Positions 2,537-7,963 of a stretch of DNA of 8,033 bases are shown here, in pieces. The stretch lies in NCBI GenBank assembly GCA_022564935.1, contig JADFKM010000073.1:1-8033 (forward strand). Reading direction: 5' to 3'. The position numbers and the translations under genes are program-made. The notes under the pieces were generated by a model. The model did not search any database. It was not told the origin of the DNA and worked only from the letters and a program-made list of their open reading frames with translations. Within the stretch, counting starts at the first letter, position 1. Each line of letters starts with the position of its first letter. Source of the stretch: Candidatus Dadabacteria bacterium (lineage in GTDB: Bacteria > Desulfobacterota_D > UBA1144 > Nemesobacterales > JADFKM01).

Positions 2537-3943
2537 TTAAGCCTTTATGCGTTTTGCATCTTGGGAATTTATCAAACCCTTTTTGTGCGCCTGTACGAGC
2601 ACGGCCATTTTGCCCGAGTGTTTGTTCTCATACATGTCCTGATGGGCCCTCGGAATGTCCTGGTATGAATAGGTATGGGAAAGGACGGGTTTTATGATGC
2701 CTTTGGAAATGAGCTCGTTGGCGCGCAGACACTCGAGGGCATTGGCGAAATGGGAGCCTATAATTCTCTTCTGATGCATCCATAAGTGACGAATATCGAA
2801 CTGAAGGTCATAGCCGGTGGTTCCTGCACAGATCACAATCCTTCCGAAACGGCTGCAAATAAATGTGCTGGTTGGAAATGTTGCCTCTCCAACATGCTCA
2901 AACACAACGTTCGGATTTCTCCTTTCACCCAGAATGTCCCAAATCGCCCGTCCGAATTTCTTCATATCGGTGAATCTGGCTTTCGACTCTTCGGGAGTTT
3001 CGCCGTGCTTGAACATGAGATTCTTAAAGTCATTTCTGTTTATAACACCCTTGGCCCCGAGCTCCATACACAGGTCTGCCTTGTCTTGAGAAGAGACAAC
3101 GGCTATTGCGTCTGCCCCGATCATTTTACAAATCTGGAGGGCAAAAACCCCGAGTCCTCCGGCACCTCCCCAGACAAGCACAATTTCGCTCGGCTGAAGC
3201 TGTGCCTGCGTCATAAGCATCCTGTAAGCCGTGAAGTAACAGAGGCCGTAAGATGCGGATTCTTCCCATGTGAGGTGCGTGGGTTTGTGAAGAAGCTGCT
3301 GGGCCTGCACTGTGGTGAATTGAGCAAAGGAGCCGTCGGGGGTTTCATAACCCCAAATCATCTGTCCCCTGCTTGCCATAGGGTCGTAGCTGATGAAGTC
3401 GTAGGGGGTCTCGGTCCTGCTTGAGTGAGTCTCGGATTCAACATTGCAGTGCAGGACGACTTCGTCCCCTGGCTTCCAGCTCTTTACGTTAGAGCCAACC
3501 CGCCACACGATGCCTGAGGCATCGCTTCCGGCGATGTGGTAGTCCTGTCCGTGTATGTCGAATACCGAGATCGGCTCGCCAAGACCCACCCATACGCCGT
3601 TGTAGTTTACTCCGGCGGCCATAACAAGGACCAGTACTTTATTAGGGCCTGGGTCGGGTACGGGAACTACCTCTTCTTTGAATGCTTTCATCGGCTCTCC
3701 GTACTGTCCCTTCCTTATAACCCATGCTTTCATAGTTTTGGGAAGAACGCTTAGGTCGGGAAGAACTCCAAGAGGTATCGGCCTATCGACCGTAACTTTT
3801 CTAGCATCATAGGCTATGTCTTCCATATCGATCGTTTCTTTTACGGCCACTCCGGGAGCTTCATCCATTATTTCATCTTTTGAGCTTGCTTTTTCTTTGC
3901 CCGAAAATTTATTTTCGTCGTTCCGCTCTTTGGTTTTTGACAT
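2537..3943 (-). CDS. ccr: Crotonyl-CoA carboxylase/reductase, 468 residues
   Basis: A zinc-independent MDR-superfamily enoyl-CoA carboxylase/reductase. It reduces crotonyl-CoA with NADPH and fixes CO2 to give ethylmalonyl-CoA, in the cytoplasm. Numbering is from the ATG at 3943. Visible family features are AAGVNYNGVWVGLG (109-122), YHIAGSDASGIVWRVG (135-150), IWGYETPDGSFAQF (196-209), the Rossmann glycine motif WGGAGGLG (258-265), FEHVGEATFP (348-357), CAGTTG and RIIGSHFAN (393-401). In studied enzymes the CO2 pocket is built from an Asn of the NYN motif, an aromatic-Glu pair and a His. Here these are Asn113/115, Tyr199-Glu200 and His398, so the protein looks active. It carries about 35 extra charged N-terminal residues (Lys, Glu, Asp, Ser) compared with the Rhodobacter enzyme as I remember it. 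The start at 3943 is preferred over 3958 because GGGGAGA lies at ideal spacing. The gene stands alone: ethylmalonyl-CoA mutase and epimerase genes are not in the window. Confidence 0.95.
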   Translation of the reverse strand: MSKTKERNDENKFSGKEKASSKDEIMDEAPGVAVKETIDMEDIAYDARKVTVDRPIPLGVLPDLSVLPKTMKAWVIRKGQYGEPMKAFKEEVVPVPDPGPNKVLVLVMAAGVNYNGVWVGLGEPISVFDIHGQDYHIAGSDASGIVWRVGSNVKSWKPGDEVVLHCNVESETHSSRTETPYDFISYDPMASRGQMIWGYETPDGSFAQFTTVQAQQLLHKPTHLTWEESASYGLCYFTAYRMLMTQAQLQPSEIVLVWGGAGGLGVFALQICKMIGADAIAVVSSQDKADLCMELGAKGVINRNDFKNLMFKHGETPEESKARFTDMKKFGRAIWDILGERRNPNVVFEHVGEATFPTSTFICSRFGRIVICAGTTGYDLQFDIRHLWMHQKRIIGSHFANALECLRANELISKGIIKPVLSHTYSYQDIPRAHQDMYENKHSGKMAVLVQAHKKGLINSQDAKRIKA

Positions 3944-3949
3944 TTGATC

Positions 3950-3956
3950 TCTCCCC
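3950..3956 (-). promoter_or_regulatory. Ribosome binding site of ccr
   Basis: Read on the minus strand this is GGGGAGA, 6 bases before the ATG at 3943. It overlaps the upstream ATG at 3958 and so decides for the shorter protein beginning MSKTKER. Confidence 0.75.
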
Positions 3957-3975
3957 ATGAATTTAAGTGGGGGTA

Positions 3976-4466: not shown

Positions 4467-5219
4467 ATGAAAAGCAAACTCGAGAAATTGCTTATTAAAA
4501 GCCAGGTTCCCAACCATGTAGCCATCATCATGGACGGCAACGGCAGATGGGCGAGCAAGAGGGGTCTTAGCCGCATCAGGGGGCATCAGGAGGGAATGGA
4601 ATCGGTTAAATCCGTTGTGAAATCGGCTCGTGAGCTTGGAATTAAGGCCATAACCCTCTACGCCTTCAGCGTGCAGAACTGGATGAGGCCCAAGGCTGAA
4701 GTAAAAGCACTGATGAAGCTGCTTAAAGACTATCTCATTAAGGAAGGGGACAAACTCTCCGAGAAGGGCATCAGACTGAATGCGATAGGAAGACTCGATG
4801 ACCTGCCCGAAGACGTATGCGTGGTACTCGACGACATAATGGAGGAAACCCTGCACAATAGGGATATGGTGCTTACACTCGCCCTCAGCTACGGCGGCAG
4901 GGAGGAAATAGTCGATGCCGCACGCAGTATTATCTCAAGAGGCGATATAACTGCGGAGAGCATTAATGAGCTCGACATATCAAATTACCTCTACACCAAA
5001 GACCTTCCTGAGCTCGACCTGTTGATACGGACGAGCGGAGAAATGAGGATCTCAAACTTCCTTCTCTGGCAAATTGCCTATTCTGAGATTTACGTCACCT
5101 CAACACTGTGGCCTGACTTTCGTAAGAGGCATCTTATAAAAGCCCTTCTCCATTACCAGAACACAGAGAGAAGGTTCGGGCTGACCAGCGACCAAATAAG
5201 GAAAAGGGAAGTTTTGTGA
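4467..5219 (+). CDS. uppS: Polyprenyl diphosphate synthase (undecaprenyl-type, cis-prenyltransferase), 250 residues
   Basis: Adds isopentenyl diphosphate units in cis to farnesyl diphosphate, giving the C55-type carrier lipid used for peptidoglycan and other envelope polymers. It acts at the inner face of the cytoplasmic membrane. All cis-prenyltransferase regions are present in order: HVAIIMDGNGRWA (17-29) with the catalytic Asp23, GH (39-40), YAFSVQNWMRP (65-75), SYGGREE (141-147), RTSGEMRISNF (188-198) and the WQIAYSE block ending in Glu207. One deviation is SVQN instead of the usual S-x-EN, so the Glu is Gln70; the neighbouring Asn71 and Arg74 are kept. The length is normal. An in-frame TAG at 4458-4460 makes 4467 the first possible start, but its ribosome binding site is poor. 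The gene ends in a GTGA overlap with dxr. Confidence 0.96.
   Translation: MKSKLEKLLIKSQVPNHVAIIMDGNGRWASKRGLSRIRGHQEGMESVKSVVKSARELGIKAITLYAFSVQNWMRPKAEVKALMKLLKDYLIKEGDKLSEKGIRLNAIGRLDDLPEDVCVVLDDIMEETLHNRDMVLTLALSYGGREEIVDAARSIISRGDITAESINELDISNYLYTKDLPELDLLIRTSGEMRISNFLLWQIAYSEIYVTSTLWPDFRKRHLIKALLHYQNTERRFGLTSDQIRKREVL
5198..5211 (+). promoter_or_regulatory. Purine-rich ribosome binding site of dxr inside uppS
   Basis: This A/G-only stretch at the end of uppS contains AAGGA and AGGGAA at 5-13 bases from the GTG at 5216. It supports the unusual GTG start and translational coupling. Confidence 0.6.
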
Positions 5220-6379
5220 AAGGGATTTCAATTCTTGGCTCCACAGGCTCAATCGGCTCTCAAACTTTAGATGTGATATCGAGTTTTCCCGAAGACTACA
5301 GGGTCATAGGTCTTGCGGCGGGGAAAAACGTCTCTCGTTTGAGGGAACAGATATTAAAGTTCAAGCCGAAAATTGTTTCCCTAAGAGATACTGGAGATGC
5401 CCGAGAGCTGAGAGAGAGCCTGGGGAATTCTCAAACCGTCGTTCTGGCAGGAGACCGGGGTGCTAACGCCGTAGCCACTGACACTGAAACGGAGCTTGTG
5501 GTTTCCGCCATGGTAGGAGCGGTAGGGCTCGAGCCGACCTTCAACGCCATCAGGGCAGGCAAGGACGTGGCGCTTGCGAACAAGGAAGTTATGGTCATGG
5601 CAGGCTCTATCATTACCTCTGAAGCAACTCGGATGGGAGTACGCATTATACCGGTTGACAGCGAGCACAGCGCGCTGCTCCAGACTTTGCGCTGCGGGCC
5701 GAGCGAATCGGTAAAGAGAGTCATTCTCACCGCTTCGGGCGGGCCGTTCAGGAACTTGCGAAAATCAGAAATTCCCCATGTCACCGTTGAGGAAGCACTT
5801 CAGCACCCTACGTGGAATATGGGTGATAAAATAACGATCGATTCGGCAACTCTTATGAATAAGGGCTTCGAGATAATAGAGGCGAGATGGTTTTTCGGTC
5901 TTTCCCCTGAGCAAATATCCGTGTGGATTCATCCGCAGAGCATAGTACACTCTCTGGTGGAGTACGTAGACGGCTCGTTCATAGCCCAGATGAGCCTGCC
6001 TGACATGAAAATCCCGATTGCGTATGCACTCTCCTGTCCGGCAAGAGCCGAATTAAACGGGACTAAAATCAACCCATGGGATTTTACGAATTTAACGTTC
6101 GAGGAGCCTGACCTCGATAGGTTCCCTGCCCTGGGCCTCGCATACCGAGCGCTTGAGCGAGGAGGCACAATGCCTGCTGTCATGAATGCCGCAAACGAAG
6201 TTGCCGTAGACGCGTTCATGAAAGCGCAAATCAAATTCAATCAGTTGTCCGAGCTCATTGAGCGGGTCATGGAACACCATACCGCTACCCTCGGAGAAGA
6301 GCTGGAAGAAATTTTTGAATGCGACTCCTGGGCCAGGGACAAGGCTAAATCAATCATTGAAGAGGAGATGCAAAATTAG
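5216..6379 (+). CDS. dxr: 1-deoxy-D-xylulose-5-phosphate reductoisomerase, 387 residues
   Basis: Converts 1-deoxy-D-xylulose 5-phosphate to 2-C-methyl-D-erythritol 4-phosphate using NADPH and a divalent metal; this is the committed MEP-pathway step and the fosmidomycin target. The N-terminal nucleotide motif GSTGSIGSQTLDV is at 8-20. The metal ligands are Asp148 and Glu150 in VDSEH (147-151) and Glu219 in NKGFEIIEA. Substrate-binding elements are ANKE (121-124), TASGGPFR (172-179), the flexible-loop His197 and Trp200 (HPTW), MGDKITIDSATLMNKG (202-217) and HPQSIVHSLVEY. The C-terminal helical domain with MNAANEVAV (323-331) is complete. The usual NKES/T is NKEV here, a minor change. The GTG start overlaps the uppS stop as GTGA, implying coupled translation. 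The usual intervening gene cdsA is absent. Confidence 0.97.
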   Translation: MKGISILGSTGSIGSQTLDVISSFPEDYRVIGLAAGKNVSRLREQILKFKPKIVSLRDTGDARELRESLGNSQTVVLAGDRGANAVATDTETELVVSAMVGAVGLEPTFNAIRAGKDVALANKEVMVMAGSIITSEATRMGVRIIPVDSEHSALLQTLRCGPSESVKRVILTASGGPFRNLRKSEIPHVTVEEALQHPTWNMGDKITIDSATLMNKGFEIIEARWFFGLSPEQISVWIHPQSIVHSLVEYVDGSFIAQMSLPDMKIPIAYALSCPARAELNGTKINPWDFTNLTFEEPDLDRFPALGLAYRALERGGTMPAVMNAANEVAVDAFMKAQIKFNQLSELIERVMEHHTATLGEELEEIFECDSWARDKAKSIIEEEMQN

Positions 6380-7963
6380 ATGTCGATTGTAGTAGGTTTT
6401 GTTTTTGTTATAGGAATTCTTGTTTTTATTCACGAGCTGGGACACTTTATTTTTGCCAAGAAGTCCGGGGTAAGGGTGGAGAAATTTTCTCTCGGCTTCG
6501 GGAAAAAGCTGTTTGGCTTCAGACGCGGAGAGACAGAATACCTGATTTCCGCCCTTCCTCTTGGTGGGTATGTAAAGATGTTTGGTGAGGGTGGTGAAGG
6601 CGTTTTTATCGTAGAAGATGTTGGAGTAGACTCAGCGGCCCACAAAGCAGGTTTCCTGAGCGGAGATAAAATCACCGGAATTGAGGGCTACGACTTAAGC
6701 TCCATCACTTCGTGGAAGGAGCTTGAAGCTAGGCTTAGAAAGAAGCCGGGGGCGGTATATACGTTTTTCGTAGAGCGCGAAGACAAGCTGCTGGAAATCA
6801 AGGCCGGCCCGGACGGATTTGAAGGCTCATCCGTTTATTCCGAGAAAGAATACCCCAGGAGCTTTTCTAAACAGTCAATCCTGAGCAGGCTCAAGATAAT
6901 TGTCGCAGGGCCTTTGATGAACCTTATTTTCCCTTTCGTGATTATGCCCATAGTGTTCATGATTGGGATATCGGTTCCCGCCTACCTTGAGATGTCCCCG
7001 ACCATTGAGTACGTTGCCAAGGACTCTCCTGCAGAAATTGCCGGATTTATGCCCGGTGATGCCATTTCGGAAATTAATAATAAACCCGTGGCAAACTGGA
7101 GAGACGTCAGGTTTGCTTTCGCCGAGAGTCTAGGCTCTCAAGTTGTGGTTAAAGTGAAAAGGGACGACGCTACGAAATCGCTTACAATAATTGCCCCGGC
7201 CACCCCCGGAGGGATCGAAGACGCCGGAATCGCCCTACCCCTCGAGGCCGTAGTAGGGAGACTGATGCCGGGCGCTCCGGCGGAGAAATCGGGGATCAAA
7301 GTGGGCGACCGGATAGTAAAGATTGATGGGCAGCCTGTTGTAAACTGGTATGAGATGGCCTCTCTGATTGGAGTGAGAGCCGATGCGGAAATTAGTTTGC
7401 TCATCGAAAGAGATACCGAGAAGATTTCGATCAGCGTTAAGCCCCGGCCGATGGGTGAATCCGGTCGTGGAATAATTGGTATAGAGCCGCTTATGGGTAC
7501 TACGCTTAAAAAGTACGGTTTTTTTAAATCTATTACCGAGGGGATTAAGGCGGCGGCAAAGCTTGTTGTAGACATAACCAATCTGCTTCTTTTGTTCGTC
7601 TACAAGATGGTCACGGGACAGCTATCTCTAAGCGCCGCAAAGAATGTCATAGGCGGTCCAATTGCAATCGCACAGCTTTCAGGCACAGCGGTGCAAGGCG
7701 GTATCGCTACACTCCTTCACTTCACCGCATTTATCAGTGTGAGCCTCGGCTTGATCAATCTTTTTCCTATCCCGGTGCTCGATGGCGGACACATCGTTTA
7801 TCTCACCGTTGAAGCGATAAGAAGACGCCCCCTGAGTATGAAGACCCTCGAGATTACACAGCGCATCGGGTTTGTGTTTTTGATATTGCTGATGTTTTTG
7901 GCCGTATACAACGATATAAATAGGCTGGACGTGTTTGAGAAGTTAAAGGAGCTTTTTAACTAG
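6380..7963 (+). CDS. rseP: RseP-type site-2 zinc metalloprotease with three PDZ domains, 527 residues
   Basis: An M50 intramembrane protease that cuts transmembrane segments, classically the anti-sigma factor in envelope-stress signalling, and remnant signal peptides. TM1 carries HELGH (18-22), in which His18, Glu19 and His22 form the zinc/catalytic motif. The third ligand region is PIPVLDGGH (463-471), with Asp468. TM2 spans about 173-200 (IVAGPLMNLIF), with further helices at about 441-465 and 493-512. Three PDZ-like units are visible: about 75-142 (SAAHKAGFLSGDKI), 207-271 (SPAEIAGFMPGDAI) and 288-353 (APAEKSGIKVGDRI). The last two match the usual tandem between TM2 and TM3. The first is an extra domain in the TM1-TM2 loop and explains the length above the E. 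coli-like 450 residues. The ATG immediately follows the dxr stop; AGAGGAG at 6361-6367 serves as ribosome binding site. Confidence 0.95.
   Translation: MSIVVGFVFVIGILVFIHELGHFIFAKKSGVRVEKFSLGFGKKLFGFRRGETEYLISALPLGGYVKMFGEGGEGVFIVEDVGVDSAAHKAGFLSGDKITGIEGYDLSSITSWKELEARLRKKPGAVYTFFVEREDKLLEIKAGPDGFEGSSVYSEKEYPRSFSKQSILSRLKIIVAGPLMNLIFPFVIMPIVFMIGISVPAYLEMSPTIEYVAKDSPAEIAGFMPGDAISEINNKPVANWRDVRFAFAESLGSQVVVKVKRDDATKSLTIIAPATPGGIEDAGIALPLEAVVGRLMPGAPAEKSGIKVGDRIVKIDGQPVVNWYEMASLIGVRADAEISLLIERDTEKISISVKPRPMGESGRGIIGIEPLMGTTLKKYGFFKSITEGIKAAAKLVVDITNLLLLFVYKMVTGQLSLSAAKNVIGGPIAIAQLSGTAVQGGIATLLHFTAFISVSLGLINLFPIPVLDGGHIVYLTVEAIRRRPLSMKTLEITQRIGFVFLILLMFLAVYNDINRLDVFEKLKELFN

Follow-up and report, generated by a model that had tools for sequence, protein, structure and literature searches.

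Group III site-2 proteases (S2Ps), such as SpoIVFB and the S2P of M. jannaschii, have a regulatory domain on the cytoplasmic side of the membrane. A CBS domain occurs in S2Ps of this group (PMC10202637). Work on group I S2Ps has so far treated their PDZ domains as periplasmic filters: the periplasmic PDZ tandem of E. coli RseP was proposed to act by size exclusion, and it is a known property of the group that the number of PDZ domains varies among its members (PMC10202637). Y69 and K71 of the membrane-reentrant (MRE) β-loop of E. coli RseP contact the substrate (PMC4597795). We found no description, in the open-licence literature, of a PDZ domain in the loop between the first two transmembrane segments (TM1 and TM2), or of a cytoplasmic or third PDZ domain in S2Ps. 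The gene described here encodes an RseP that shares with its counterparts from E. coli (structure 7w6x) and A. aeolicus (9j82/9j83) the HExxH motif in TM1, the MRE β-loop, TM2, the PDZ-N/PDZ-C pair, TM3 and the LDGG motif. Unlike it, neither of these two proteins has anything matching its residues 72-157.

The rseP gene and its surroundings

The window, i.e. the whole stretch of DNA that was analysed, is 8,033 nucleotides long and contains the genes uppS (4467-5219), dxr (5216-6379) and rseP (6380-7963) in this order. They form a contiguous run (5210-6380), the start of dxr lying 4 bases within the end of uppS; cdsA, which is often sited between uppS and dxr, is missing from it. On the other strand, at 2537-3958 (-), there is a 473-aa alcohol dehydrogenase-like ORF which, by reading only, resembles crotonyl-CoA carboxylase/reductase. 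The features of rseP are as follows.

6380..7963, + strand: rseP, site-2 intramembrane metalloprotease of 527 aa (TIGR00054, 356 bits for a cut-off of 147.55; Peptidase_M50, 216.5 bits)
6383..6463, + strand: TM1, residues 2-28, with HELGH at 18-22 (6431-6445) (AlphaFold2 helix 2-28; hydropathy peak 3-21)
6545..6589, + strand: MRE β-loop, residues 56-70, ISALPLGGYVKMFGE (alignment; equivalent to E. coli 61-75)
6593..6850, + strand: inserted third PDZ domain, residues 72-157 (Pfam PDZ_2, AlphaFold2 and fold matches; missing from E. coli and Aquifex RseP)
6878..6964, + strand: TM2, residues 167-195, with AGPLMN at 176-181 (AlphaFold2 helix 167-195; hydropathy peak)
6992..7228, + strand: PDZ-N of the periplasmic tandem, residues 205-283 (PDZ_6 at 209-261; match to 2zpl, 3id1 and 7xfs)
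7229..7495, + strand: PDZ-C of the periplasmic tandem, residues 284-372 (PDZ at 289-342; match to 7w70, 3id2 and 7xft)
7520..7960, + strand: TM3, LDGG motif (467-470) and C-terminal helices, residues 381-527 (AlphaFold2, hydropathy and conservation)

The ORF is a complete RseP orthologue of group I (M50B), with HELGH and LDGG intact. The Peptidase_M50 match covers residues 7-504, and the profile search reports three PDZ stretches in addition. Invariant residues are H18, E19 and H22, belonging to the HExxH motif in TM1, and D468 and G469 of the LDGG motif near the C-terminus. The structural model of the whole protein aligns with 7w6x and 9j82/9j83 over 422-424 residues, at 34-36% identity and with Z-scores of 25.5-29. 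The protein is predicted to be a protease of type II membrane substrates. Its closest named relatives are found in genomes of Candidatus Dadabacteria, e.g. CSP1-2 (57% identity).

A third PDZ domain between TM1 and TM2

Relative to the RsePs of E. coli and Aquifex, residues ∼72-157 (6593-6850) constitute an insertion between TM1 and TM2: alignments with both proteins run over residues 5-71/75, leave 72-157 unmatched, and resume at 158/160 to continue to 517. The original prediction had proposed, for the region 6590-6820 (residues 71-147, including SAAHKAGFLSGDKI at residues 85-98), an extra PDZ domain in a loop next to the active site, and both parts of this proposal hold. As to the position, it can now be given more exactly. 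The insertion point is the exact end of the MRE β-loop, of which Y64 and K66 align with E. coli Y69 and K71, and the first PDZ strand of the insert (76-79) comes ten residues past K66. Since the last aligned stretch (56-70) is the MRE β-loop itself, the extra segment begins directly behind the substrate-presenting strand. An assembly or frame artefact was considered as the source of the insert and ruled out by the single open frame and by the occurrence of the same insert in 41 genomes; the segment is neither a chance product nor an assembly artefact, for it recurs in dozens of independent genomes.

As to the nature of the insert, profile, model and fold comparison agree. Translated alone (6581-6850), it scores 31.1 bits against Pfam PDZ_2 (E = 2.8e-7; cut-off 27), and the inserts of families f2, f4 and f7 reach 32-36 bits, also above the cut-off. 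The AlphaFold2 model of the whole protein, computed from a 48-row alignment, has a mean pLDDT of 88.6, with values of 84-93 across residues 81-160 and of 80 for residues 71-80; its residues 72-157 form strands and helices in the bacterial-type (permuted) PDZ order rather than an ordinary β-hairpin loop, and the insert modelled alone, from six sequences, is a PDZ domain with the same elements as in the whole protein. In searches with Foldseek and VIA, the top rows for the insert are all PDZ domains, including those of GRASP, Nas2 and RseP PDZ2. Superposition gave a Z-score of 8.3 with RseP PDZ2 (3id4; rmsd 2.8, 81 aligned residues) and of 9.7 with 4o06, among the GRASP/Nas2 PDZs (rmsd 3.0, 85 residues); in the whole-protein model, residues 73-155 also align with 4o06 (Z-score 9.6, rmsd 2.3, 82 residues). 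A PDZ domain had been placed at residues ∼75-142 and there is one there, but it is longer than was thought, ∼72-157, because a last strand at 151-154 completes the fold. Before this strand most members have an L-E-G-I consensus, which reads FEGS in the protein studied here. The insert is a putative binder of C-terminal peptides. Its origin by recent duplication of PDZ-N or PDZ-C is unsupported: in hhalign comparisons these two score 111 with each other versus 88 and 93 with the insert. Against the insert, HtrA-type PDZ domains from this order reach scores comparable to those of PDZ-N and PDZ-C.

The remaining two PDZ domains occupy, as foreseen, the usual place between TM2 and TM3, by both profile and fold matches, and the tandem they form (205-372) aligns with the solved periplasmic tandem of RseP. 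The insert is flanked by TM1 (2-28) and TM2 (167-195), its own hydropathy maximum being 0.89. Because TM2 separates it from a tandem homologous to solved periplasmic PDZ domains, the insert should be cytoplasmic, on the membrane side opposite to the periplasmic filter, which is where it had been expected; by homology with solved RseP structures, it would lie beside the active-site cleft. That residues 72-157 are instead periplasmic, or not a PDZ domain at all, is extremely improbable given the intervening TM2 and the concordance of profile and fold. Taken as a description of anatomy and topology, a cytoplasmic PDZ domain in the TM1-TM2 loop of RseP is, in our view, close to certain.

Enlarged RseP homologues with other architectures were encountered as well. 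The RseP of a Bdellovibrio (L046:3001-4632) also has three PDZ domains and a similar length, but it carries all of them between TM2 and TM3, and its TM1-TM2 spacing is an ordinary 39 aa. Across the Bdellovibrionota loci (L043-L068), the PLGGY-to-AGPxxN distance is 39 and the distance from AGPxxN to DGG is ∼390 versus ∼290; here RseP has grown independently, in its periplasmic part. Group III S2Ps differ in another way: their domain is CBS rather than PDZ and is not placed after the MRE loop. Two M50 matches of the Acidobacteriota survey (G264:C48:46291 and G294:C88:16002) are located in open frames of ∼900 aa and are possibly fused S2Ps.

Distribution among lineages

It had been suggested that the enlargement might be a lineage trait, and this is what the survey reveals. 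The class was represented by 57 genomes, 43 from the order of the genome studied here and 14 from a single further family, f8. All 41 genomes of the order whose RseP covers the site carry the insert. It is missing from all 14 genomes of f8 (G043-G056), whose RseP is an orthologue from the same class and in which TM1 to TM2 is one stretch of ∼120 residues. In all readable Dadabacteria loci, the PLGGY-to-AGPxxN spacing is 112-116 aa, versus 38-64 aa in every locus fetched from other lineages. A TM1-TM2 profile was also run on genomes sampled from three further phyla, those to which a Desulfobacteraceae, a Porticoccaceae and an Acidobacteriota record belong. The insert was not found in the 269 genomes with a match (93, 99 and 77, respectively), since every main match spans TM1 through TM2 in at most ∼430 bases; this part of the survey comprised these three phyla only. 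The cytoplasmic PDZ domain of RseP is therefore a trait of one whole order of uncultured Candidatus Dadabacteria and occurs in no other lineage searched. One genome (G007) seemed to have lost a periplasmic PDZ domain, but its sequence at that place consists of masked or unknown bases.

In a tree of RseP computed without the insert columns, the inserted RsePs fall in two parts around the long-branched f8, and a single clade of inserted RsePs is not rejected (p-AU 0.195). As it stands, the tree requires the state to change twice, which may reflect one gain followed by a loss in f8, or long-branch attraction. The f8 RsePs (L120-L127, from genomes of ∼1 Mb) have an odd amino-acid make-up besides their long branch, and in the one tested (L120) Pfam recognises PDZ-C only, PDZ-N being degenerate.

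Conservation of the insert

Within the order, the mean pairwise identity of the insert is 0.45; the corresponding values are 0.48 (PDZ-N), 0.44 (PDZ-C) and 0.68-0.81 (membrane core). Over close pairs, the summed dN/dS ratio of the insert amounts to 0.17, well below 1; PDZ-N has 0.10, PDZ-C 0.155 and the core 0.04. The insert is under purifying selection and evolves at a rate like that of PDZ-C; it is maintained but drifting. The conserved positions belong mainly to the core of the domain (G95, D96, W112, R133) and to the linker to TM2 (Y158, R160, F162). Many members, but not all, have the GLGF-like L-E-G-I preceding the last strand (L147 in 76%, G149 in 68%). In two families, f5 (L118, L119) and f6 (L027, L029-L036), helix α-1 (A..AGF) is lost, and in f6 the glycine of the carboxylate-loop equivalent is missing as well; the inserts of both families score 19.5-24.4 bits against PDZ_2, below the cut-off of 27. 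There, the cytoplasmic PDZ domain seems to erode while still being kept. Because f5 and f6 do without helix α-1 and at least one family lacks the glycine, a peptide-binding role is probably not universal across the order; the same pattern speaks against one universal peptide ligand.

These data bear on the idea that the insertion is structural or near-neutral, steadying the TM1-TM2 loop without selecting substrates. The sister family f8 does without the insert, and in f5 and f6 the domain shows partial degradation, as this idea would have it. But all testable genomes from seven families retain the insert, with a dN/dS of ∼0.17 and an identity equal to that of the periplasmic PDZ domains, and we regard a purely structural role as improbable.

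Possible roles of the cytoplasmic PDZ domain

What function could such a domain have? The RseP orthologue of this order has acquired, in its cytoplasmic TM1-TM2 loop right after the MRE β-loop, a PDZ domain of the bacterial, circularly permuted type, and this domain could serve as a second gate or dock at the catalytic cleft. It would limit how easily type II substrates bring their cytoplasmic flank to the MRE strand, mirroring, on the opposite face, the size exclusion proposed for the periplasmic tandem. Of the roles considered, a gate or dock may fit best, because the domain would lie at the cytoplasmic opening of the cleft and its ligand groove is not uniformly conserved. Our preference for it over the other roles is tentative and falls a little short of even; for the statement as a whole, an RseP with a cytoplasmic PDZ domain that acts as a gate or dock, we would put the chances at about even.

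A different possibility is that the domain acts after cleavage, by binding the new C-terminus of the released cytoplasmic fragment and either retaining the fragment or delivering it to a protease of the cytoplasm. C-termini are the classical ligands of PDZ domains, this new one is exposed to the cytoplasm only once site-2 cleavage has occurred, and the domain would be located at the exit of the scissile site; the GLGF-like motif, moreover, is kept in most members. Profile searches with RseA_N, FecR and SspB gave no match in this genome, which is 88.6% complete, and the lack of the SspB adaptor could mean that another hand-off is needed. SspB, however, is missing from most control genomes too, and the loss of the glycine in f6 and of helix α-1 in both f5 and f6 makes a ligand site conserved order-wide unlikely. 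We hold capture of the product to be unlikely, though it is the rival role of greatest interest. Much the same weight goes to the broader proposition that the domain grips, at the scissile site, either the fresh C-terminus that the enzyme has itself produced or the substrate's flank on the cytoplasmic side. If this were true, substrate selection or product release would be controlled from both membrane faces; no description of such a both-face checkpoint was found for any RseP in the open-licence literature.

The domain could also bring RseP into a complex, by recruiting either a partner from the cytoplasm or another membrane protein through its C-terminal tail. Recruitment of partners is the commonest use of PDZ domains in general, and cytoplasmic partners would have access to the insert on its side of the membrane. 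But no candidate partner was found and the neighbours of rseP are the conserved housekeeping genes uppS and dxr, so that a tethering role appears rather unlikely.

For the gate or dock that we favour, as for the other readings, the order offers a natural experiment: a cytoplasmic PDZ domain present order-wide at the end of the substrate-presenting strand raises the question of whether the PDZ domains of S2Ps are filters, docks or product binders, and of whether access can be controlled from the side on which the transcription factor is released. With regard to substrates, none of the known classes was recognised in this genome; a zf-HC2 search found two anti-sigma ORFs in this genome (L130:1489-1746 and L131:1378-1665), with no TM segment evident on reading, which suggests that they are soluble anti-sigma factors and not RseP substrates of the classical kind. 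They are 85-95 aa long, and that of L130 lies directly behind a sigma-factor-like ORF.
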